Shown here: piece after piece, positions 7,522 to 26,445 of the stretch
Layout: each line of letters opens with the position of its first letter
Numbering within the stretch: position 1 is the stretch's first letter
NCBI GenBank assembly: GCA_028819235.1
Contig: JAPPMC010000237.1
Location: forward strand, 1-64,000
Direction of reading: 5' to 3'
From: Bryobacterales bacterium
GTDB lineage: Bacteria; Acidobacteriota; Terriglobia; Bryobacterales; UBA6623
DNA: 64,000 nt
Notes under the pieces: model-generated
The model's input: only the letters and a program-made list of their open reading frames with translations
Told to the model about the DNA's origin: nothing
The model's database searches: none
Translations under genes and position numbers: made by a program

Positions 7522-9114
7522 TCATTTGCGCCTGCCTCCACGCTTGGGCCACAGACCGAGGGCCTTTCGAGCCGCTTCTTCGTCTTGCGTCGAGATGCGC
7601 TCTCGGGCGAGCAGGTCGAAGAAGGTGGCCCTATTGACAGAAGTGTTGAACTCCGGCTCCTTGCCGAACACGATCTCCAAGCCCGATGGCTTCACGCGAA
7701 GCTCGTAGTCGCCCTTGCCTAGGCGGATCGTTGTCTTGACACAATTCCAACCGTTTCGTTCCGCTAGGGCGACGGCGGCCTTGGTCCGGCGGGCATCCCA
7801 AACCCTAGTAGCCCCGAAAGCCTCACGCAACGGCTGGCAACGCGCCGCTGGCGCGCCCAAGTCTAGGGCGCTTCCGGCCAGGTGGTGGGACATGGCCGCC
7901 ATTCGGTCCGACACGGCGTCGGCCAGGCCCGGAAAGTCCCGCAGACTGTTAGGCAGGCCCTCCCATCCTGAAGAAGCGCCAAGAAGAATCGCCGCGGCCA
8001 GGAAGTCCACCTCGTTTAGCATCGGACGATCGGAGTCGAACAGGGCATCGCATTCGTCGCACAGGAAAAACAGACCGAGCGCCCTTGAGAATGGCTTCGG
8101 ATGGCGCTGGAACAGTTCTGATTCGGACAAATCCCCAAATCCGGAAAGCGATTCGAGGTCGTGCGCCAGCTGCTGGAGAGACTTTCTCAGGCGCTCATCC
8201 AAGGCACTGGCCGTTTCCTTGAGGTAGTCCAGAATGGAGGCCCGTGCATCGGGCCTACGCTCGACACTCCTCTGTACCACGATCCTGTCAACCACTCCCC
8301 AAAAGAGCCAGCGAGGCAAATCCGCCCGCTGGACGGGATCGGTGGGCCCCTTGGGCCGGAGGTCGCACTGTCCAGACTGGAGCCACGGGCGCAAGCCAGC
8401 GAGGATCGGGTCCTTGGGCTCGTGTCCCGAAGTCTCTTCGGGATCGAACGCCGCGACGCACGCCTCAGCGCTGAGTGCGCCTCGGTTTCCTAGCCACAAG
8501 AGCATCGCAACGACGCCTCCCACGGCTAGCGGGACTTGCAGGGGGGCACTTCGTGGGCTGGGCGCGGAATCTTGGGGAAGCGCGCCGCCTCCGTAACCGT
8601 TGAACTTTGCCTTGACCGTATGCTGGGCAAGGCCCTTGAGGGTGACGTTCGCGAAGTCCAGAGCATCGTCGTTGACCTGTTTCTTCTCGGCCACTGAGCG
8701 ATAGATCAGCCTCTTGATCCGGCTTGTCGGCAACGGAGCGGGAAGCAGGATTGCGCGGTCGGTGGCCTTGTCGGCCTGGCTTGGGAAGTCTACAGCCTCA
8801 AACCGATCGTGGCGGAGTGCGAAAGCCGAACCGGAGATCCCCTCTAGGTCGATCTCGGCAATGCACGGCTTCAGGTGGCCTACCTCGGCGACGGACTCTT
8901 CGAGCGCAGCTGCCGCCGGCTTGCCGACAAACAGCGGGATCCAGCCCGGACAGTACCGAACAGTGTCTCGGTAGTACTTCTCTCCGAAGCCTTCAGGCGG
9001 AAGGATCAGGCCGGCTGACAGCATGTACAGAAGGTTGAGATGGTTCGTGACCAGCAGTCCCGTCGTCGGTGGCTCTGCCCCGTCCGATGCGAACAGTGTT
9101 TGAGGCTGCGCCAT
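7522..9114 (-). CDS. Uncharacterised 530-aa protein, fourth gene of the kinase/DrmA/DrmB operon
   Basis: Long ORF whose ATG overlaps the upstream helicase stop (TGATG). Begins MAQPQTLFASDGAEPPTTGLLVTNHLNLLYMLSAGLILPPEGFGEKYYRDTVRYCPGWIPLF; no domain recognised by eye. Confidence 0.75.
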   Translation of the reverse strand: MAQPQTLFASDGAEPPTTGLLVTNHLNLLYMLSAGLILPPEGFGEKYYRDTVRYCPGWIPLFVGKPAAAALEESVAEVGHLKPCIAEIDLEGISGSAFALRHDRFEAVDFPSQADKATDRAILLPAPLPTSRIKRLIYRSVAEKKQVNDDALDFANVTLKGLAQHTVKAKFNGYGGGALPQDSAPSPRSAPLQVPLAVGGVVAMLLWLGNRGALSAEACVAAFDPEETSGHEPKDPILAGLRPWLQSGQCDLRPKGPTDPVQRADLPRWLFWGVVDRIVVQRSVERRPDARASILDYLKETASALDERLRKSLQQLAHDLESLSGFGDLSESELFQRHPKPFSRALGLFFLCDECDALFDSDRPMLNEVDFLAAAILLGASSGWEGLPNSLRDFPGLADAVSDRMAAMSHHLAGSALDLGAPAARCQPLREAFGATRVWDARRTKAAVALAERNGWNCVKTTIRLGKGDYELRVKPSGLEIVFGKEPEFNTSVNRATFFDLLARERISTQDEEAARKALGLWPKRGGRRK

Positions 9115-10286
9115 CAGATCTCCTTGCGCCGCAGAACCGATTCGTCAGTGGGCAGGATGCTGTCGAGTCTGCTTTCGACGCCCTTCCGCCTCAACATCAC
9201 AACCCTCTCGCGAGCGCGGGCCACCATGACATAGAATTGTTTCTTAGCCATATCCAAGTCATCTGCTGGGATGTAGTGCTCGTCAACATCTATACAAATC
9301 ACAATCTCAAATTCTTGGCCTTTGCAAGCTTGGACGTTGAGGACGATGATCCCACCCATGTCCAACTTAACGTTTGTTTGCTTACCATGACTGTATGTGC
9401 GGATCAAGGGCTGACCGTGTTGCAACGTAAGGCTGTCAGAATCTAACGTTGTTCGTAGCGCGGATAGGTATTGTTCCCTTACAGAATTGTTCGGTGCTAT
9501 GACGCCTACCAATTTGTGCGGATTCTTATCTGCAGTAAGAAGAATACGTCTTATGATTTGCTGAAATCCACCGGAAGGAAATGAATACAGTTCAGCAGTC
9601 TTCATGTCAGGATGTCTTGGAAGTAAAGGTGGAGGACTGGCAGGATCACCCGTGTAGAAGGTACGTGCAAGCTCTGCAACACTGCGACTGTTCCGGAAGT
9701 TCGTGCGGAGTTCGATCACTTCGCTTGCGTCGATCGCGAGTGCGTTCTCAATGTCTTGACGACTACTGTTCTCGTCCGTGATTTGTTGATTCTGATCTGC
9801 GACCACAAAGAAATTCTCGAAGCCCAGCCCTACCAAGCTGGAGTAAAACTCGGGTGGCATGTCTTGCCCTTCATCAATCACAATATTGAGATGCTGCTTG
9901 CCCCAATCGGTCTGGTCGATAATACCTTCAATCCGCTTCCAATCGAACGGTCGAAAGCTTCCCTCCTGCGTAGTTGGGACAAGCGGTGCGTCTTGATTCG
10001 TAATTTCCTTGAAGATTCGCCAATACCAACGCTTCCACGTCTCGCACGAGAGTTGTCCGCGAAACAAGCCATGACTGGCCTGCTTGAGCAAGTGGTTGAA
10101 CATGAGGACGACATATTTTCTGCCGCTCCTCGCCAGCCGCCTGGCCCTGAGGAGCGCAAGCACGGACTTGCCGGTGCCCGGTCCTCCGATGACCAAGTGC
10201 TGCCCGTCTAGCGGCAGCGATCGGACACGCTCCTGATCCTTGGTCAGGTCTTGGACTCGCGGGAGCCTGAAGGTACGGCGGGCCAC
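9114..10286 (-). CDS. UvrD/Rep-like superfamily 1 helicase/ATPase
   Basis: Walker A IGGPGTGKSVLALLRA; Walker B IVIDEGQDMPPEFY; VVADQNQQI; ELRTNFRNS; VNVQACKGQEFEIVICID; KKQFYVMVARARERV. GTG start overlaps the upstream stop (TAGTG). Confidence 0.88.
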   Translation of the reverse strand: MARRTFRLPRVQDLTKDQERVRSLPLDGQHLVIGGPGTGKSVLALLRARRLARSGRKYVVLMFNHLLKQASHGLFRGQLSCETWKRWYWRIFKEITNQDAPLVPTTQEGSFRPFDWKRIEGIIDQTDWGKQHLNIVIDEGQDMPPEFYSSLVGLGFENFFVVADQNQQITDENSSRQDIENALAIDASEVIELRTNFRNSRSVAELARTFYTGDPASPPPLLPRHPDMKTAELYSFPSGGFQQIIRRILLTADKNPHKLVGVIAPNNSVREQYLSALRTTLDSDSLTLQHGQPLIRTYSHGKQTNVKLDMGGIIVLNVQACKGQEFEIVICIDVDEHYIPADDLDMAKKQFYVMVARARERVVMLRRKGVESRLDSILPTDESVLRRKEI

Positions 10287-12130
10287 TATGCCTCCGGCAG
10301 GGTGAATTCGGTCAGTGGTGCCACTCCGGTTGTGGGGTCACCCTTGATGAAGGCCCTATCCAACAGAGTATTGCCGAACTCACAGCTAGTGTCGGGAATC
10401 AGGGCGCACGCGTGGCACGCCGCAAGATTGAGGAGGGCGGGCCCTTGGCCCTGATGCGATGCGCAGACAGGATCCATCGAGCACCAAGATGTCTGGTCTA
10501 GTGCCGCTTGGAGAATCCGCAGGAAAGGCCTGGGCTTGGCCATCTGCACCAGTCCGCCCAGCGACCCGAGCTTGTCCGGGACGGATACGTAGATCAGTAT
10601 GCCGGCCATTGGAGCCTCGTCCGTGCCAGCGTAGATCCGCTCTCTCAGAGAAGCGGCCGGGTACCCTGCCTCGGACTCGAGCTGTCTGATGACCGCATGT
10701 GCCAGCGTGTGGAGCATCACGAAACGGGGAGTGATCTTCAGACCCTGCATAGACCGCCGGACTGGGTGGCTAGCAAGCCGGGCGCTCAGGACCGCCGAAC
10801 GCGCCTGCAGCACTTCCTGCTGCCCCCACTTGTCGATTGCACGTCGACTGATCGTGAAGAAGATGCCCTCGCCGCGGAGGGAAAGTGCCGGAAGCCAAGA
10901 GGACGAGCCTGAGATGTCGGGTGCGACGATGCGGTCCGCTGAGAACCGGCTAAACCCCTTGAAGACTAGGATTTCCTGCAGTCGCCGGACTTCGATCAGT
11001 CGGTCCACGATGGAGGCGGTCTTGCGCAGACGGCCCTCCGTCCGGCGGCGGAGCACGCTCCAAGCGCCCGTGTGGTGCTCCGTCACGAAGTCTTCGTCCT
11101 CGCGGAGGTCGGGAATCTCGTCCAGGAATGCGTTGTACTCCAGCCAATGCAGGTTTCCCTCGGCCAGAGGCTGGCCGTAGAGAGGATAACCATTCCGCAG
11201 CTCCCGCAACGCCACCTCGATATCGGATACGGAGCAGCGCCAGTCATCGGCGGTCCGCTTCAGGATCGACCTCCGGTGCAGGCCCGTTCGCGCATTCGTG
11301 ATTCTTCGTTGCACCTCTGAGCTGGCGTACAGTCGATCGACCACCGTTCCCTTGCGGATGCGGGACTCCGGGGGAATCACCAGCGCCGTCTGCGTGGCCG
11401 GCAGGTGAATCCTGACGTCATTGACGTCCACAACCCATCCCGGCTCGGAAACTTCCTCGGGCGGAGGCTCGCGAATCCAAGGCTGCTGCCCGTGTCGGGC
11501 TGGAAACTCGATTCTCTCCGGCAGTTCGCCCGCCAAGCCGCAGTTCTCGCAGCGCACAGATGGTCGTCGGCTGCCCAGCAGAATCCTCAAATTGGGAGGG
11601 CTTTTCCAGCACGGGCCAGCCGCGCCGGCTCGCCGTTGGTCGAGCCCCGGCTGTCGGGAGCGGGCGCTGTGAGCCACGGTTTGCCACGGCACGTCGGCGA
11701 GGTACCCATCTGCGTGAACGACAATCCACGGCACTTGCTCCAGAAGCGAACCGCATTGCTCGCCCTGCCTGCCGCTGCAGCGGAATCGCACAGCCTCCGG
11801 GCTCTCGCGCCACGGCTGGCGGTGCAACAGGCCGCAGTGCGGACACCGCATCCAAGTCGGAAACCGGACAGCCGGAATCCAGTTCCCCATGACCGTCCCG
11901 GAGGTCTCCACCGTAGCCGTCGGCGGAGTGCACAGGATCTCGGAGATTCCGAGCGAGCTGCGGACCTGATCCACATACTGGATTTGGCGCGACTCCGGTG
12001 CTGTGCCTTCCGGAAACCACTTGCTGGTGTCCTGAACTGCGAGGAGGAAGTTCTGCCCCCGAACGATGGCCCCGACACCACACTGTCGGAGCAGGTGCGA
12101 TAGCCGGACCGACACGATCTCGCCGGTCAT
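10286..12130 (-). CDS. DrmB-like (DUF1998) DISARM-type protein
   Basis: Zn-binding CPHCGLLH/CENCGLAG and C-terminal LHTLAHAVIRQLESEAGY...MAGILIYVSVPDKLGSLGGLVQMA...CSMDPVC...LLNLAACHACALIPDTSCEFGNTLLDRAF, characteristic of DrmB/DUF1998. Confidence 0.82.
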   Translation of the reverse strand: MTGEIVSVRLSHLLRQCGVGAIVRGQNFLLAVQDTSKWFPEGTAPESRQIQYVDQVRSSLGISEILCTPPTATVETSGTVMGNWIPAVRFPTWMRCPHCGLLHRQPWRESPEAVRFRCSGRQGEQCGSLLEQVPWIVVHADGYLADVPWQTVAHSARSRQPGLDQRRAGAAGPCWKSPPNLRILLGSRRPSVRCENCGLAGELPERIEFPARHGQQPWIREPPPEEVSEPGWVVDVNDVRIHLPATQTALVIPPESRIRKGTVVDRLYASSEVQRRITNARTGLHRRSILKRTADDWRCSVSDIEVALRELRNGYPLYGQPLAEGNLHWLEYNAFLDEIPDLREDEDFVTEHHTGAWSVLRRRTEGRLRKTASIVDRLIEVRRLQEILVFKGFSRFSADRIVAPDISGSSSWLPALSLRGEGIFFTISRRAIDKWGQQEVLQARSAVLSARLASHPVRRSMQGLKITPRFVMLHTLAHAVIRQLESEAGYPAASLRERIYAGTDEAPMAGILIYVSVPDKLGSLGGLVQMAKPRPFLRILQAALDQTSWCSMDPVCASHQGQGPALLNLAACHACALIPDTSCEFGNTLLDRAFIKGDPTTGVAPLTEFTLPEA

Positions 12131-15100
12131 CGCGCCTTTAGGACTCCTGTCCGCTCCACTTCGCGCATCGAGTTCATCGTCGGCCAGACGCCTTTTCGGC
12201 GCATGTCGTGGCCGAACAGGAGCGAGTCCGCGGACCTGTCCCTAGCGTCGTAGTGAAGCTGGCGGCGCTGCTTGCGGCATCGGTCGGCCTCCGCGAGCCA
12301 TTCCCCGACGAGCGCGTCGATCTGGCGGCACGTTTGGGCGTCTCGGCCTCCGGCGTGGGCGGCCTCGCAGCGTTCCTTCAGGGCGTCTACCGCTCGCGAC
12401 ACGCGGGCATGCAGGGTCAGTTCGCCGGCCCGGTTGTTTTCTCGAAGCCCGGGGACGGCGTGGCGCAGGACTATGACCAGTGCCGCGTGCAGGGCCCTCG
12501 CCCGGACCGGGTATGTGAATGGGGTGACGCTTGATGGCTCCACAAAGCGATAGAAGGACTCGTGGTATGGCCTGAAGAGTTCGTAATGTGACAGGCTGCG
12601 AGCCTGATGGCGAAAGTAATTCGCAACGACCAGGCCGGGAACTGCCGCGCGGCCCACGCGACTGCTGGCCTGGATGTACTCTGCGGTCGTTAGTGGCTGA
12701 CCGTTCACAACCATGACCGCTAGGCGGGACACATCTAGGCCGACGGACACCATATTCGTTGCCAGCACAACGTCAAGATGTCCCTCTTGGGTGCGGGAGA
12801 GCTGCAATCGGCGGAATGTCTCGGCGTTCTGCGCCGCGGTGGGTGTGCTCGTGAGCTGGGCAATCTCCAATTGCAATGCCCGCGACCAGGGAGCTAGGAC
12901 GGGGTCATTTGCGAGTCTGCCCTCGTGCGTCTCGTCACCCTCCCCCGGACCGCGACGGGCGTCCTGCATCTCAATTGACAGTCTCCTCGCCCAGTCGCGG
13001 ACTTCGACAGCGTAGGCGTTGTGCGAGATCCCGACGCCGAACAATGTGCCGTGGTAGATCACTTGGGTCCACCACGCTTCCAGCAAGTCTTCCCGGTCCG
13101 CCTCGGAGGCTTGGCCGAAGATCTCCAAGGGCCCCGTGAGCAAAGCGGCCGCGAGCGGGGCGAGGCAGTGGCGCTGGTCGAGCTTGTGGGCTAGGTACCC
13201 GAGGTACAGCCGCGCTGGACGCCGCTCGTCCGATCGGGCGAAGTAGCAGTCATCGCACGACAAGCCGGGCGGCGGAAACACTGCCACGTCTCGTGCGTAC
13301 AACTGCCTGACCTGCTGGGAGGCCATCCGGATCGTCGCCGTCGAGGCGACATACTTCGGATGGACACCTCTGAGGCGCACAACCGTGTCGACGGCCGTCT
13401 CGTACGTTCCGGCCACCGACCCTAGCGGTCCGGTGATCAGGTGAACCTCATCTTGGATGATGAGCTCGGGCGGTCGCTGCGAATCCCGCCCGAAGAATGC
13501 ACCCGCTCTCGCCTCCCAAGCGAGGCGGGCAAACTTGTCGATTGTCGCGATCAGCAGGGTGGGTGGGTTTCGGTAGAGCGCCTCGTCGACCACATTGCAA
13601 GGAAGTGGCCTTGACGACTTGCCGAAGTCGCAATCTTCGTTGCGGCAATGAAACGAGAACTGTGTCCTCGACGCGCTGAAGCTGGAGTTTGTGAAGGCCT
13701 CGCTGCACCACGGACACGAGTCCAAGACGAACTGCTCCGGAACGTCTCCGGCTTCGCTCGCATCCTCCAGAACTCTCCGCGCACCGAGAAAGCTGTTCGG
13801 GCATATTTTCAGCCCGACCCAGATCCCTACCGAGATCTGCTCCGGCCCTAGCAACTTAGGGTCGCTCCTGCGCAGGATCTCCAGCGCGAAGATCATGCGC
13901 GTTGCCCGCTCAAACTGCTGCTTCGTCAGGAGTCGGAGCGTGTACCGCATCAGGACAGCTGTACCACCGCCGGAGTCCGGGTGCCGCATCCGGCGCCATG
14001 TCACCAGGAATGCCATCAAGCCGAGGTAGGCCTCAGTCTTCCCGCCCCCAGTAGGGAACCAAATCAAGTCCAGAACGTCGCGAAACTCGTCTCGCTCGCG
14101 AACGGCGGACTCCATGGCCGTCAAGAGAAATGCAAGCTGGAAAGGTCGCCACTTGTAGTGCTCGGGGGAATTCGAAGAGCCACGTATTCGATCCAGCTGT
14201 CGCATCTGGTCCAGCATGGCTTGGTTTGCGAGGCGGAACGCCGTGGCGACCAACGGGTCATTCCCCAGCAAGTCAATGCCGCCCAACATCCTTCTCACCG
14301 CGACCCTCATTCGATTCAGGATTCGCGCTGCCACCGTGCGCTCGCTCGCCCCAAGCTCCTGGACAGGTTGAGTCCGAATCCAGTTCTCGTAACCGGCGAC
14401 AAACGCCCTCAATTCCCGAATAATCGTCTCTCCAGCGGCTGTGCTCAGAAAGTGCATGCTCATGACTCGGCTCGGTCCGCCGCGCAGGACCGTTGTCACG
14501 AGCGGGACTTCTGCCCTTGGCATGAAATCGATCCACACGCGTCCCCTGCCCGTGTCATCGATGCTCCAATCCACGGCCACGCCATGCCCCACTGCGAAAA
14601 TGCGCTTGTCCTTGTACTGAAACTCGAGTTCTTGCTCCTCCTCCGTCAGCAGGCTCTTGTCAACATGCGGGAACTCGGCCAGGGATCCCGCCGTCACCTC
14701 GCACTCGAGCTCCACTTCAAAGAGCGCCCGTTGGGCACGCTGCACTGCCAACGCTCTCCCGAACTCGTCTTCCGCGATCTTCTGGCGGTTGCACAGGGTC
14801 ACGGTAACGATGTGGCCGTCGTGCGCCGGCCTGCCCTGCACATCGATTTCCAGACGGTCGGTGTTCTCAGTCTGTCCGCCCAAGTCCGCCGACTCCCAAG
14901 TGCGGGCTGTTTCCGCCAGCGGGACCCGCTTGTATCGGCCCCGGACGAATCGGCCCTCGCGCCCTCGTGCTCCCGAGTGTTTGTAGACCGTTGCGCGTGC
15001 GGTCACCTCTAGCCGTGCCGGCCCTAGGATGAAGACCGAGAAACCCGCGGATGACGGCGGCACATATCTTCTCTTGCGTGCCGGTTCGGCGACAACACCG

Positions 15101-17760
15101 GCGCCTGCCTCAACGGATTGATCTTCAGGCTCCTCGATTCCGTCCGAGACGCGGCTGGTCGAGACGTCGATGTCAACGCCAGAGGCGGGATCCATTCCAC
15201 CCAAGTCGGGCTCGATAGCGTGGAGCACACCGACGGGATAACGGTCCAGCGGAGAAGCATTGAGTTCCTCCGATTCCCGCGCTGGCCCGATCAGCTGTTT
15301 TCTCAGCCACGAGACCAAGCGGCCCCGAGCCTCGACATAGAAAGTGCCCTCGTCCCGCCGAAGCGCTCGGGCCCCAGCGGGGGCACTTGACGGACTTGCG
15401 TGCTCTTTGGCTGCGGGATCCCGAGGCGCTTCGCGTCTGGTTCTTGACTGTGACGAGGCCGCTGACCGGCCTGAAATCGGAGCCGGCGCCCCGGATTCAC
15501 TTCTTTGGCCTGATCCGGATCCGTCTGCGGCATGTCCTGGCTGTGTGTCTTGGGGCACCTGCGCGGGCTTGTCTGGCTGGTCGGCGCTGCTGCTGCTGTC
15601 GCGCAGCCGATGGAGCGCTCGCAGCGCTTCCTCGGCAGAATCGAATCGTCGGGCGCGGACAGGGTGCGTCGCTGTGTCCAAGAAGCTGGCGATTCTGGGA
15701 TGGGTAGTGCGGTCGGTCGAGTTCCAGTTGAGGCCGCGCTCCTTGGTCAAGTCGCCTTTGCGCCGGAATGGCGGTCGGCCGTGCAAGGCGTGGAAGAAGC
15801 TTGCTGCTAGGGCATAGATGTCATCGGAGGGCAAGGCTGTTGGTCCCTCCGTCCTTCTTGGCGCGGAGTACTCCACAGACCCTTGGAAGACTGGCTGTTC
15901 ACCGATCTTGGCGACGCAGTCGTAGTCCGTGAGCACCAGACACCCTTCCGAGACGATCAGATTGCCGGGGCTGACGTCCCCATGGGTCAATCCGGCGTTG
16001 TGGAGGATCCCGAGAGCCTGGCAGGCGTCCTCTAGCCAGCCAAGTGCGCGGTCCTCGCCCACTTGTCCCGCGAAGGTCTCGGACCGCAGGCCGGGCGAGG
16101 CGGCGAACTCGCCTAGCGGACGCCCCGGAATCCACCTGAGCAGAGCGACAAAGCTGTCCGCCCGCCACTCATGCGCCACTTCGAAGACGGTTGCCAGTGG
16201 ATGCCGGAGGTGGGCGTGGGCAAGTTCGTGGGACCAAATTGCCTGACGGCCGAGATCCTCAGCCGGTACCGCCTTTGCGACGTACTCGCCCATGACAGCC
16301 CCGTCTTGCTGACGGATCTTGGCAACCCGGAATGCGATGCCGACGCCTCCGCGTCCGAGGCGCTCGACGACCCTGTACGTGCTCCCACGGAAGCGGATCT
16401 CGCTGCCTTCGCCCCATCGCTCCGCTACTGGCATTGGCGTGATCGGATTCCTGAGGAGCGCGGCGAACTTTCCCTCCAAGTCTTCCAAGCGGATGCGCCG
16501 TGCCAGTTCGTCAGCCAATCCCTGCGCGAGGAGTGCTCTGGCAAGCCGGCTCGCAGCATCTTCCCGGCCCTCGAACAGCGCTGAGAGGCTGTGACACAGC
16601 GAATACGTGTCCGACCGGGGGCCAGCGACACGGAGGCTCCTTCCGCGGCGGACCTCGGGCGCAACGGACTCGTCCCAGTCCGAGTCTCCCGTCTCGGTCT
16701 TCGCGACGGTTGCATGCGAGGGGAGACGTGCCACGTCGAAGCCCGTCAGGATCGTCGAGTTGTCCTCGCAAACTCGGATAGTCTCGCCGGTGAGGTTGCG
16801 GTGGATCAGCCCAGTACCGGCCGTCGGGAGAGTGTGGAGTTCCATCACTGCACGAATCGCGGACAAAGAACATTGCATCCTCTCCTGCGTGCTCCAAAGG
16901 GGATCAGACTTCCTGTCGCCGATCGACGGAGCCGTAGGATCGACCGTCGAGAAGAACCAAAGTTCGCCCTCGTAGTTCTTGGCGCTCTGGTAGGAGTCGA
17001 CGATGCTGGGTGCCCAACTTCGCTTGCTCAGCAGGTGAAGCGTCTTCCACGCTCGGGATGCTCTGTTTGCACCATTGGATCCGACAGCGGACAGATCGTA
17101 GAGGTGCAGTTCGACGCGCTCCCTCACAAGCGTTCGCACGCCGCCGTAAACACGATGGAATCCGTCGTTGTCCGCCCGCCGGAGCTGGAGGTCCTCGTAA
17201 CCCGGAAGCCGAAGTGTGCCGTCCACTGCAAGGCCGGTCTCCGGTGCCAAGAACCTGCCGATATCGAGGATGGTCGATTCACTGAGAACGGGTGTCCCGT
17301 CGACTCCCACGGCCAGTCGCCAGTCGTCAAGCGTATGGACTTGGACTCCCCGAACGGCGATGGCCGTTTCGCTAGCGGGGCGATACGGTGGTTTCGTCAG
17401 CAGGATCGCTCCGCTGACCCTTCCGACCTTGCTGAAGCCGTGTTCCCGGAGTGTCGCCCCGACGCGCTTCGCCTTTCCCGTGAGTATTTCGGCGGCCCGC
17501 TGGAAATGGCGCTCATTCCTCAGGCGATTGCTGATGCTCCAGTGCTTGACCTCGATGAGGCGAACGCCCGGAGGTCCGACCGCAACAATATCGATTTCGT
17601 CGGACTGGCGATTGTTGTCTGAGGAGAAGTTGAGATTCGTCAGCAGAAGCCAGTAGCCCTCGCGGGATCCGGCCTTGCCGAGCCCGGTCCTGATCCTACT
17701 GGCGGCTTCGTGTTCGCTCTTTGTGACCAGCTGTCCACATCGAACCAACTTGACCCGCAT
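12127..17760 (-). CDS. NERD + pseudokinase + Ser/Thr kinase (PglW-like) fused to a DrmA-like helicase
   Basis: 1877 aa. NERD: DEIDIVAVGPPGVRLIEVKHW. Pseudokinase: GLIHRNLTGETI, LTGFDVARL. Kinase: VVERLGRGGVGIAFRV, THGDVSPGNL, LTDYDCV. Low-complexity linker ~aa 720-805. Helicase: WFPTGGGKTEAYLG, IIQDEVHLITGPLGS, VASTATI, ATNMVSVGLDVSRL...AEYIQASSRVGR, LSHYELFRPYHESFYRFVEPSSVTPFT. Confidence 0.87.
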   Translation of the reverse strand: MRVKLVRCGQLVTKSEHEAASRIRTGLGKAGSREGYWLLLTNLNFSSDNNRQSDEIDIVAVGPPGVRLIEVKHWSISNRLRNERHFQRAAEILTGKAKRVGATLREHGFSKVGRVSGAILLTKPPYRPASETAIAVRGVQVHTLDDWRLAVGVDGTPVLSESTILDIGRFLAPETGLAVDGTLRLPGYEDLQLRRADNDGFHRVYGGVRTLVRERVELHLYDLSAVGSNGANRASRAWKTLHLLSKRSWAPSIVDSYQSAKNYEGELWFFSTVDPTAPSIGDRKSDPLWSTQERMQCSLSAIRAVMELHTLPTAGTGLIHRNLTGETIRVCEDNSTILTGFDVARLPSHATVAKTETGDSDWDESVAPEVRRGRSLRVAGPRSDTYSLCHSLSALFEGREDAASRLARALLAQGLADELARRIRLEDLEGKFAALLRNPITPMPVAERWGEGSEIRFRGSTYRVVERLGRGGVGIAFRVAKIRQQDGAVMGEYVAKAVPAEDLGRQAIWSHELAHAHLRHPLATVFEVAHEWRADSFVALLRWIPGRPLGEFAASPGLRSETFAGQVGEDRALGWLEDACQALGILHNAGLTHGDVSPGNLIVSEGCLVLTDYDCVAKIGEQPVFQGSVEYSAPRRTEGPTALPSDDIYALAASFFHALHGRPPFRRKGDLTKERGLNWNSTDRTTHPRIASFLDTATHPVRARRFDSAEEALRALHRLRDSSSSADQPDKPAQVPQDTQPGHAADGSGSGQRSESGAPAPISGRSAASSQSRTRREAPRDPAAKEHASPSSAPAGARALRRDEGTFYVEARGRLVSWLRKQLIGPARESEELNASPLDRYPVGVLHAIEPDLGGMDPASGVDIDVSTSRVSDGIEEPEDQSVEAGAGVVAEPARKRRYVPPSSAGFSVFILGPARLEVTARATVYKHSGARGREGRFVRGRYKRVPLAETARTWESADLGGQTENTDRLEIDVQGRPAHDGHIVTVTLCNRQKIAEDEFGRALAVQRAQRALFEVELECEVTAGSLAEFPHVDKSLLTEEEQELEFQYKDKRIFAVGHGVAVDWSIDDTGRGRVWIDFMPRAEVPLVTTVLRGGPSRVMSMHFLSTAAGETIIRELRAFVAGYENWIRTQPVQELGASERTVAARILNRMRVAVRRMLGGIDLLGNDPLVATAFRLANQAMLDQMRQLDRIRGSSNSPEHYKWRPFQLAFLLTAMESAVRERDEFRDVLDLIWFPTGGGKTEAYLGLMAFLVTWRRMRHPDSGGGTAVLMRYTLRLLTKQQFERATRMIFALEILRRSDPKLLGPEQISVGIWVGLKICPNSFLGARRVLEDASEAGDVPEQFVLDSCPWCSEAFTNSSFSASRTQFSFHCRNEDCDFGKSSRPLPCNVVDEALYRNPPTLLIATIDKFARLAWEARAGAFFGRDSQRPPELIIQDEVHLITGPLGSVAGTYETAVDTVVRLRGVHPKYVASTATIRMASQQVRQLYARDVAVFPPPGLSCDDCYFARSDERRPARLYLGYLAHKLDQRHCLAPLAAALLTGPLEIFGQASEADREDLLEAWWTQVIYHGTLFGVGISHNAYAVEVRDWARRLSIEMQDARRGPGEGDETHEGRLANDPVLAPWSRALQLEIAQLTSTPTAAQNAETFRRLQLSRTQEGHLDVVLATNMVSVGLDVSRLAVMVVNGQPLTTAEYIQASSRVGRAAVPGLVVANYFRHQARSLSHYELFRPYHESFYRFVEPSSVTPFTYPVRARALHAALVIVLRHAVPGLRENNRAGELTLHARVSRAVDALKERCEAAHAGGRDAQTCRQIDALVGEWLAEADRCRKQRRQLHYDARDRSADSLLFGHDMRRKGVWPTMNSMREVERTGVLKAR

Positions 17761-25184: not shown

Positions 25185-25735
25185 TCTGCGGAGTAATCTA
25201 TCGTCAATGCGGCGTCATGCGCGGCCGACGACATCTTCCGCCAGGTCTTGCGCAAGATCCGCACCATGTCCGGCCGCTCCTGTGTAGCGGCAAACGGCTC
25301 GAAGTAGTGGTCGAGGAACACAAGGCACGCTACGTCCTCGAGCGTCTGCGCCCAGGCGTCCGTCCGGAAGCGCTCCTTGCGGATGGTTGCCTGCACGCGT
25401 TGCACCGTCTCGGCCCCCACTCCGCACTCGCGCATGATTGCCCCGGCCGTGTCGGCATGGAACCGGCCCAGCTCACGCCGCCACCGCAGGTACCCGGTAC
25501 GTCCGCTCGGATAGGTGGTTCGCGGGATCTTCCACCTGCAAATGTGCTGCGCCCGCACAGCCAACCGCACCTCCTCAGGGGCCTGCGGGGCCAGCCGGTC
25601 GAGCCAGGCGGACATCCGGCGGGCGTATGCAAGCTCCTTGGGCGTACCGTCGGCCTCGAGATTCGGGTCTTCCGAGTTTGCCGCGTCGAATCGCCGCACG
25701 CAGCGCTCAACGATGTGCCCGTCCAAGGCCATCAT
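25118..25735 (-). CDS. DUF4202 domain-containing protein
   Basis: RFDAANSEDPNLEADGTPKELAYARRMSAWLDRL...RAQHICRWKIPRTTYPSGRTGYLRWRRELGRFHA. Confidence 0.85.
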   Translation of the reverse strand: MMALDGHIVERCVRRFDAANSEDPNLEADGTPKELAYARRMSAWLDRLAPQAPEEVRLAVRAQHICRWKIPRTTYPSGRTGYLRWRRELGRFHADTAGAIMRECGVGAETVQRVQATIRKERFRTDAWAQTLEDVACLVFLDHYFEPFAATQERPDMVRILRKTWRKMSSAAHDAALTIDYSAECASLLKEALGGGGQGQRSRTR

Positions 25736-26445
25736 TGAGCGCTCCGGAGATCATGCTGGCTAGTGATCACAGCGGCCATTGACACTGCCGCCGTTTCGCT
25801 TCGGAGGATGCTCGTGCCGAGGCAGGCAGGCCGGAAGCCGTGCTTGGTCGCCAGGTCGACTTCCGTGGACGTCCAGCCTCCCTCCGGGCCCACAAGTAAG
25901 GAAGTGCTGCCTCGTTCGCATGCGCGAGCTACCGCCTCCCCTCCCGGATCGGCCAGAATCCCCCCGCGCGTGCCCTTGCTGTGGACCGCGGCCTCGAAGG
26001 CCAAGGGTGGGTTCACCGCCGGCGCTGCAAGATGCCTTGACTGCTGGGCAGCTTCGACAGCGATTCTGGACCACCGCTCCACACGCCGTGATGCGGCCCT
26101 CACGAGCCGGCGGTCGCAGCGGCCGGCCTCCAATGGCGTCACGCTACGAACGCCAATTTCCGTGAGCTTTTCGACGGCCCAGTCAAACCGAGAGAACTTG
26201 ATGATTGCCAACGACACGTCCAGCCTGGCGGGCCTTGGAGAGGGGAGAGGTTCGCGGACTCGGAAGCGGACCTCAGCCGCGGAACAGGCTATCGTCACAG
26301 CGCGGTAAGCCGTTTGCTGGTCGGAAACCTCGACATGCTCGCCGGGCCGTAGCCGGGCCACCCTAGACAGGTGGTGGGCTGGCCGCCCCGTGACCGTAGC
26401 CTCAGAGCCATCGATGCTGTCAACGAAGACCCGCCGCAAGGCCAT
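25732..26445 (-). CDS. rsmE: 16S rRNA (uracil1498-N3)-methyltransferase
   Basis: HHLSRVARLRPGEHV...KFSRFDWAVEKLTEIGV...RWSRIAVEAAQQSRH...LLVGPEGGWTSTEVD...LGTSILRSETAAVSMAAVI. Confidence 0.93.
   Translation of the reverse strand: MALRRVFVDSIDGSEATVTGRPAHHLSRVARLRPGEHVEVSDQQTAYRAVTIACSAAEVRFRVREPLPSPRPARLDVSLAIIKFSRFDWAVEKLTEIGVRSVTPLEAGRCDRRLVRAASRRVERWSRIAVEAAQQSRHLAAPAVNPPLAFEAAVHSKGTRGGILADPGGEAVARACERGSTSLLVGPEGGWTSTEVDLATKHGFRPACLGTSILRSETAAVSMAAVITSQHDLRSAQ

Follow-up and report, generated by a model that had tools for sequence, protein, structure and literature searches.

The drmA, drmB, sf1 and X genes of the window (the whole 64,000-nucleotide stretch of Bryobacterales DNA analysed here) form a translationally coupled unit that is inherited together, recurs in the same order in other genomes and, as a rule, has no methyltransferase gene linked to it. 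As the sequence-only reading of this DNA had suspected, this unit matches none of the catalogued systems tested. We see about an even chance that the operon is a DNA-targeting defence system, related to DISARM and devoid of a linked methyltransferase, in which DrmAB and the SF1 ATPase would expose single-stranded DNA for the DarT-like protein X and for a NERD nuclease.

The positions and lengths previously proposed for the four open reading frames were all confirmed (see the table), and so were the junctions ATGA (drmA/drmB), TAGTG (drmB/sf1) and TGATG (sf1/X), which correspond to overlaps of 1-4 bases between consecutive genes. Domain calls were also upheld, by Pfam for NERD, Pkinase and helicase, by PADLOC for DrmA and DrmB (DrmB also by NCBIfam), and by both Pfam and PADLOC for the UvrD_C_2/GajB-like SF1 protein. 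The fusion protein encoded by the first gene scored as DrmA with 612 bits in PADLOC and with 792 bits in NCBIfam, the latter under the equivalog cut-off of 950. In agreement with the earlier description, Pfam searches of the flanks found no DNA methyltransferase, PLD nuclease (DrmC), PglX or PglZ. The flanks carry P450, sulfatase, DUF1552, NrfD/molybdopterin oxidoreductase and RNA methyltransferase genes; the window copy thus sits among metabolic genes and not in a defence island. Close to its left end (1327-2091), the window encodes a nucleotidyltransferase substrate-binding (HEPN/MNT-like) protein, possibly one partner of a toxin-antitoxin pair. The G+C content of sf1 is 0.52, against 0.62-0.64 in its operon neighbours. 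Promoter and terminator predictions in the window showed no excess over shuffled sequence, and Rfam gave no match there.

Table. Genes and protein regions of the operon, with the only methyltransferase gene of the flanks (positions in the window)
Feature	Position	Strand	Description
drmA fusion gene	12127..17760	-	1877 aa; NERD nuclease, pseudokinase, Ser/Thr kinase and DrmA helicase in a single open frame
NERD domain, aa 16-130	17371..17715	-	Pfam NERD, E=1.3e-7; PD-(D/E)XK motif SDEIDIV...LIEVK intact
Pseudokinase, aa ~186-440	16441..17205	-	HRN and GFD in place of HRD and DFG
Ser/Thr protein kinase, aa 457-730	15571..16392	-	Pfam Pkinase, E=1.4e-15; PADLOC PD-T4-6/MkoA/mad6 kinases
Ser/Pro/Gln-rich linker, aa 731-806	15343..15570	-	From alignment; junction is the start point of the relatives' standalone DrmAs
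DrmA helicase portion, aa 807-1877	12127..15342	-	Walker A TGGGKT, DEVH box; ~50-56% identity to relatives' standalone DrmA
drmB	10286..12130	-	614 aa; DrmB (DUF1998/MZB); NCBIfam DrmB_fam 316 bits, cut-off 240
sf1	9114..10286	-	390 aa; SF1 UvrD/GajB-like ATPase without nuclease domain; Pfam UvrD_C_2
X	7522..9114	-	530 aa; signature protein of the system; homologues in 44 loci
X N-terminal domain, aa 14-175	8590..9075	-	Predicted DarT-like ADP-ribosyltransferase fold (Foldseek, 2CompART, hhalign)
X central all-helical domain, aa 188-434	7813..8553	-	Predicted ARH/DraG-like fold; AF2 pLDDT 91
X C-terminal small domain, aa 438-525	7540..7803	-	Predicted helix, four strands, two helices (AF2); W456/C458 conserved
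RNA methyltransferase	25732-26445		Sole methyltransferase in the flanks (flank annotation)

The phylum yielded seven further X loci, six of which share the gene order of the window, the seventh being truncated at a contig end. When an alignment of the eight X proteins was used as query against 84,980 species genomes, 44 X loci were recovered in seven bacterial phyla, partly overlapping the former seven. They come from Acidobacteriota (with Vicinamibacterales, Thermoanaerobaculia and Aminicenantes), Alpha- and Gammaproteobacteria and Azoarcus, Verrucomicrobiota, Gemmatimonadota, Desulfobacterota, Planctomycetota and Rhodothermota, and the carriers include the cultured strains Lamprocystis purpurea DSM 4197, Rhodanobacter thiooxydans LCS2 and Desulfobacter latus AcRS2. 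The drmA-drmB-sf1-X genes were colinear on one strand in all 41 loci that reach drmA (tblastn), a few of which carry frameshifts in one gene; in the three loci outside this count (L032, L048 and L049), a contig end interrupts the locus. The predicted recurrence of the gene order is thus borne out in every locus long enough to show it, and chance is excluded. Because X served to find the loci, their synteny does not represent DrmAB loci at large, but it does test fairly whether X accompanies the other three genes. Moreover, pairwise distances of the four proteins in the 29 complete loci correlate with r 0.89-0.96, a value reached by none of 1000 permutations, and this strong correlation indicates that drmA, drmB, sf1 and X travel as one unit. 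The synteny is well supported, and the four genes are co-inherited. The SF1 motifs GGPGTGK and DEGQD were invariant in seven homologues. Among the 71 large neighbours of the relatives' operons, PADLOC matched MADS, type I-IV restriction, Gabija, PbeA and other systems, which supports the view that these neighbourhoods are defence islands and that the family has a role in defence.

Several of these loci have features of their own. Two genomes each carry two copies of the system (L050/L056 and L023/L028), L056 being apparently broken by frameshifts, and one Rhodothermales genome encodes DrmA and DrmB as a single fused protein of 1654 aa (L058:3871-8835). A Schlafen AlbA_2 protein with a HATPase_c_4 domain adjoins the system at L037:12382-13782, and a relative of it does so at L063:1495-2913. 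A scan of the genome contigs with the single X sequence gave no result, nor did X homologue searches of plasmids, phages and viral contigs. A single plasmid copy was found, on plasmid P4 of Deinococcus gobiensis I-0 (L099:8379-17954), in the order NERD-SF1, DrmA, DrmB, SF1 and a divergent X. This X-like protein matched the X profile with an hhalign probability of 97.2, and the P4 DrmA falls outside the X clade, so that the association with X may predate the clade or have been rearranged.

A fifth gene, whose product (about 520-565 aa) joins a NERD nuclease with an SF1 helicase, is present in 26 of the 44 loci, either after X or, in L042, L044 and L045, before DrmA. Its product has RTasNERD-Hel as best PADLOC match, and the E-x-D...E-x-K and Walker motifs are intact in the members checked. 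The window operon is devoid of this gene and has a NERD domain instead at the N-terminus of the kinase-DrmA fusion, where it may functionally replace the fifth gene. A NERD-SF1 gene on another contig of the same genome (C189, 36% identity) was not counted as part of the system, because it lies apart from any such operon. Three alphaproteobacterial plasmid loci (L102, L107 and L110) combine a UvrD helicase, DrmA, DUF1998 and a NERD-helicase without methyltransferase, and one of them, in Azospirillum ramasamyi, is followed by a true DarT. This adjacency was rejected as proof of a link with DarT: the closest relatives, in Rhizobium TA1 and C5.7, have no DarT, so that it may be a coincidence, and the four DarT relatives that were examined are all located elsewhere.

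The kinase module deserves a separate comment, as the sequence-only reading had taken the combination of a BREX kinase with the DISARM core as the defining character of the locus. This does not hold, since none of the 44 relatives has the module; a junction search in 99 Acidobacteriota found the kinase-DrmA junction covered in this genome only, and the fusion was therefore discarded as a defining feature of the system. Nor is the module specifically of BREX type: with NCBIfam models it scored 121 bits for MAD6 (cut-off 460) and 36 bits for PglW (cut-off 990), both far below cut-off, and the NERD-inactive kinase-active kinase layout has been described in PglW and also in DndF (PMC12839542). The description as a tandem kinase was correct, the first copy being a pseudokinase and the second retaining its catalytic motifs (HGD..N, DYD and the Gly-rich loop). 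No DrmA model was among the best 25 PADLOC matches of the N-terminal 800 aa. In PglW and DndF, this module has been proposed to act as a co-effector or as a back-up suicide module (PMC12839542; PMC10853773). The same type of module occurs on contig C113 of this genome as part of another fusion (37% identity). There (L020:4606-15764), a NERD-kinase protein of 1365 aa with an SspF/DndF-like C-terminal part is followed by a mad7-like gene and then by a gene for a HerA/DndH/mad8-like protein of 1749 aa; together they are a candidate for a defence operon of hybrid MADS/DndFGH type.

Protein X had been described as unknown, and this stands in that it has no match in PADLOC or NCBIfam and no significant one in Pfam; its DarT-like and ARH-like nature, and the usual fifth gene, had been overlooked. 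AlphaFold2 models were built with the eight X proteins (pLDDT 81) and, for the rest of X, with 36 homologues (pLDDT 91). According to these models, the N-terminal domain likely adopts an ADP-ribosyltransferase (ART) fold: the top seven PDB matches in Foldseek were all DarT (probability 1.00, best E 8e-5, TM 0.54 on target), the next one being a tRNA 2'-phosphotransferase with E 0.13. The Pfam family 2CompART (PF22546) was matched by 13 of the 36 homologues (best E 8e-4), and around the last ART motif the X profile aligned with the DarT profile with an hhalign score of 28, whereas 100 block-shuffled profiles reached 18 at most. X gave no significant direct sequence match to DarT, and the DarT profile PF14487 was not among the families matched by any of the 36 members at E <= 1. 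Comparison by eye relates the first motif of X, T-N-x-x-N-L-x-x-M-L-x-x-G, to T-x-x-x-N-L-x-x-I-L-x-x-G of DarT, and aligns N27 with the DarT Asn. The T-N-x-x-N-L motif, which resembles an NAD pocket, and K46 are near-invariant, and conservation is strongest at N24, N27, F43, D50, G57 and W384. At the position of the catalytic Glu of DarT, X has D119; the residue is acidic in 26 of the 36 homologues, and five have no acid in the neighbouring stretch. Since the acid is not universal, catalysis may have been lost. For the helical part, the top 32 PDB matches were all ADP-ribosylhydrolases (ARH/DraG), but with E >= 0.07 and TM 0.2-0.47, and none of the metal-binding Asp pairs of ARH is conserved in the 36 homologues; the predicted resemblance to ARH is weak, if suggestive. 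A search of the X profile against PDB sequences gave no result, the BFVD fold search with X gave no match below E 0.001, and a PF22546 search in 199 genomes gave no match, its controls being equally silent.

As in DISARM, the DrmA SF2 helicase and the DrmB DUF1998 protein are encoded separately, side by side and in the same order. In contrast to DISARM, the system has no DrmMI/DrmMII, DrmC, DrmD or DrmE, and it has an SF1 ATPase, X and usually a NERD-SF1 protein; SF1 and X follow DrmAB in 41 of 41 loci, with no PLD in either protein. In a tree of 53 DrmA sequences, the clade of the X loci (support 0.996) is separate from that of class 1 DISARM (0.989), the tree holding sampled class 1 sequences and no verified class 2 (DrmE) sequence. 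The closest survey (PMC12458937), in which ARMADA, BRIGADE and TALON are defined, counts DrmA and DrmB in split form as DISARM; members of the present gene set may be listed there under that name. These YprA-family systems and Druantia (PMC12458937) share a YprA-like helicase core with the window system, ARMADA II likewise has a GajB-like SF1 helicase and TALON a NERD nuclease; the window system differs in that DUF1998 is a separate gene and not fused to the helicase, and in that PglX-like methyltransferase, BrxHII-like helicase, 7-deazaguanine genes and TOTE proteins are missing. The N-terminal NERD-pseudokinase-kinase module of the fusion is shared with PglW of type 2 BREX, DndF and MAD6 of MADS, but here it is joined to DrmA, is absent from the system's relatives and has no linked PglX, PglZ, BrxC, DndGH or other MAD proteins. 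Membership in BREX was rejected on the PglW score and on the missing PglX, PglZ and BrxC in the flanks; as for MADS, the MAD6-like module occurs alone, without the MAD1-MAD8 set and the methyltransferase that belongs to it. X shares the DarT-like ART fold with DarTG, from which it differs by its 530 aa with an ARH-like helical region and its place in a DrmAB operon, where no DarG macrodomain antitoxin was seen. Nhi, RT-associated NERD helicases and GajB of Gabija resemble the SF1 and NERD-SF1 proteins, with other partners and, except for RTasNERD-Hel, with low scores. The titles and passages covered, which treat DISARM or DrmA together with a NERD or kinase domain, an ADP-ribosyltransferase, DarT or a missing methyltransferase, gave no description of the gene set.

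In DISARM, a trigger loop keeps DrmAB inactive and DNA with a 5' single-stranded overhang switches it on, so that DrmAB discriminates by DNA structure; DISARM also restricts phages without its methylation motif, and DrmC is dispensable (PMC9142583). The window system fits a version relying solely on structure. By analogy with DISARM, DrmAB might recognise invading or replicating DNA by its 5' single-stranded overhang, without a methylation mark, and translocate on it, and together with the SF1 ATPase it would make single strands accessible, and these are what DarT acts on. DarT ADP-ribosylates nucleic acid, and DarTG is reported to protect against phages (PMC11543638). X might attach ADP-ribose to the exposed strands as DarT does, which would block phage replication, with its ARH-like region serving as a regulatory or ADP-ribose-binding part, and the NERD nuclease would cut the DNA. 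In the window, the NERD-pseudokinase-kinase region fused to DrmA could supply both the nuclease and a phosphorylation-based control, and a kinase module so placed could be triggered directly by the sensor. In its boldest form, the proposal is that ADP-ribosylation, and not methylation, is coupled to the DISARM helicase core: X would be a DarT-like writer, with a regulatory half resembling ADP-ribosylhydrolases, that marks or poisons the invader's single strands exposed by DrmAB and SF1, NERD nucleases would deliver a second blow, and here the nuclease arm would be replaced by the kinase-regulated NERD fused to DrmA. We hold this tentatively, as a rather unlikely possibility.

Other explanations for X were considered. 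It might be a catalytically dead, ADP-ribosyltransferase/hydrolase-like scaffold that senses DNA or nucleotides by binding, while DrmAB, SF1 and the NERD nuclease would account for the whole of the defence. The patchy acid at the DarT catalytic position and the missing ARH metal ligands speak for this, and the most conserved residues are compatible with binding; however, the near-invariance of T-N-x-x-N-L and K46 would be unusual for a ligand-free domain, and we regard this explanation as unlikely, while giving it serious weight. In many defence systems, a sensor works together with an effector that degrades NAD+. On that pattern, and with an ART-fold domain adjoining a DNA-sensing module, X could be an NAD+-consuming abortive-infection effector that DrmAB, on sensing phage DNA, activates to deplete NAD+ or modify a host target. 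This is improbable in our view, as the unit has no separate antitoxin gene and the YprA-family relatives (ARMADA) that have been characterised act directly and non-abortively (PMC12458937).

It might also be argued that the locus is an ordinary DISARM with its methyltransferase gene at another place in the genome, given that the composition of DISARM is flexible, as the dispensable DrmC illustrates (PMC9142583). However, the window and its relatives together have 275 neighbouring genes that code for 200 aa or more, and a convincing [DNS]PP[YFW] methyltransferase motif was found in only one of these genes, in Desulfobacter latus. With this one exception among 44 diverse loci, with DrmA in a clade of its own, and with class 1 DISARM on plasmids of Paracoccus, Trichormus, Nostoc, Sinorhizobium, Microvirga and Nocardioides keeping the methyltransferase inside the operon, a distant methyltransferase appears quite improbable. 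Finally, the fusion comes from one draft genome (318 contigs) and is seen in no relative, as might be expected if assembly or annotation had joined two unrelated genes. Such an artefact is nevertheless very improbable, considering the uninterrupted frame of 1877 codons with its typical disordered linker, the uniform G+C content (0.635 and 0.628) and the recurrence of this module type on contig C113 as another fusion.

If the reading of the operon as a methyltransferase-free relative of DISARM is true, the recognition core of DISARM can do without a methyltransferase for self-marking and can be wired to another chemistry, and this would support the structural claim that DrmAB tells invaders apart by DNA structure. 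The fusion would illustrate that NERD-kinase modules move between defence systems. A widespread set of four to five genes, found in Acidobacteriota, Pseudomonadota, Gemmatimonadota, Desulfobacterota and others, is now named, whereas current catalogues would probably list it only as stray DrmA/DrmB genes, and the unannotated X family gains a function that can be tested.
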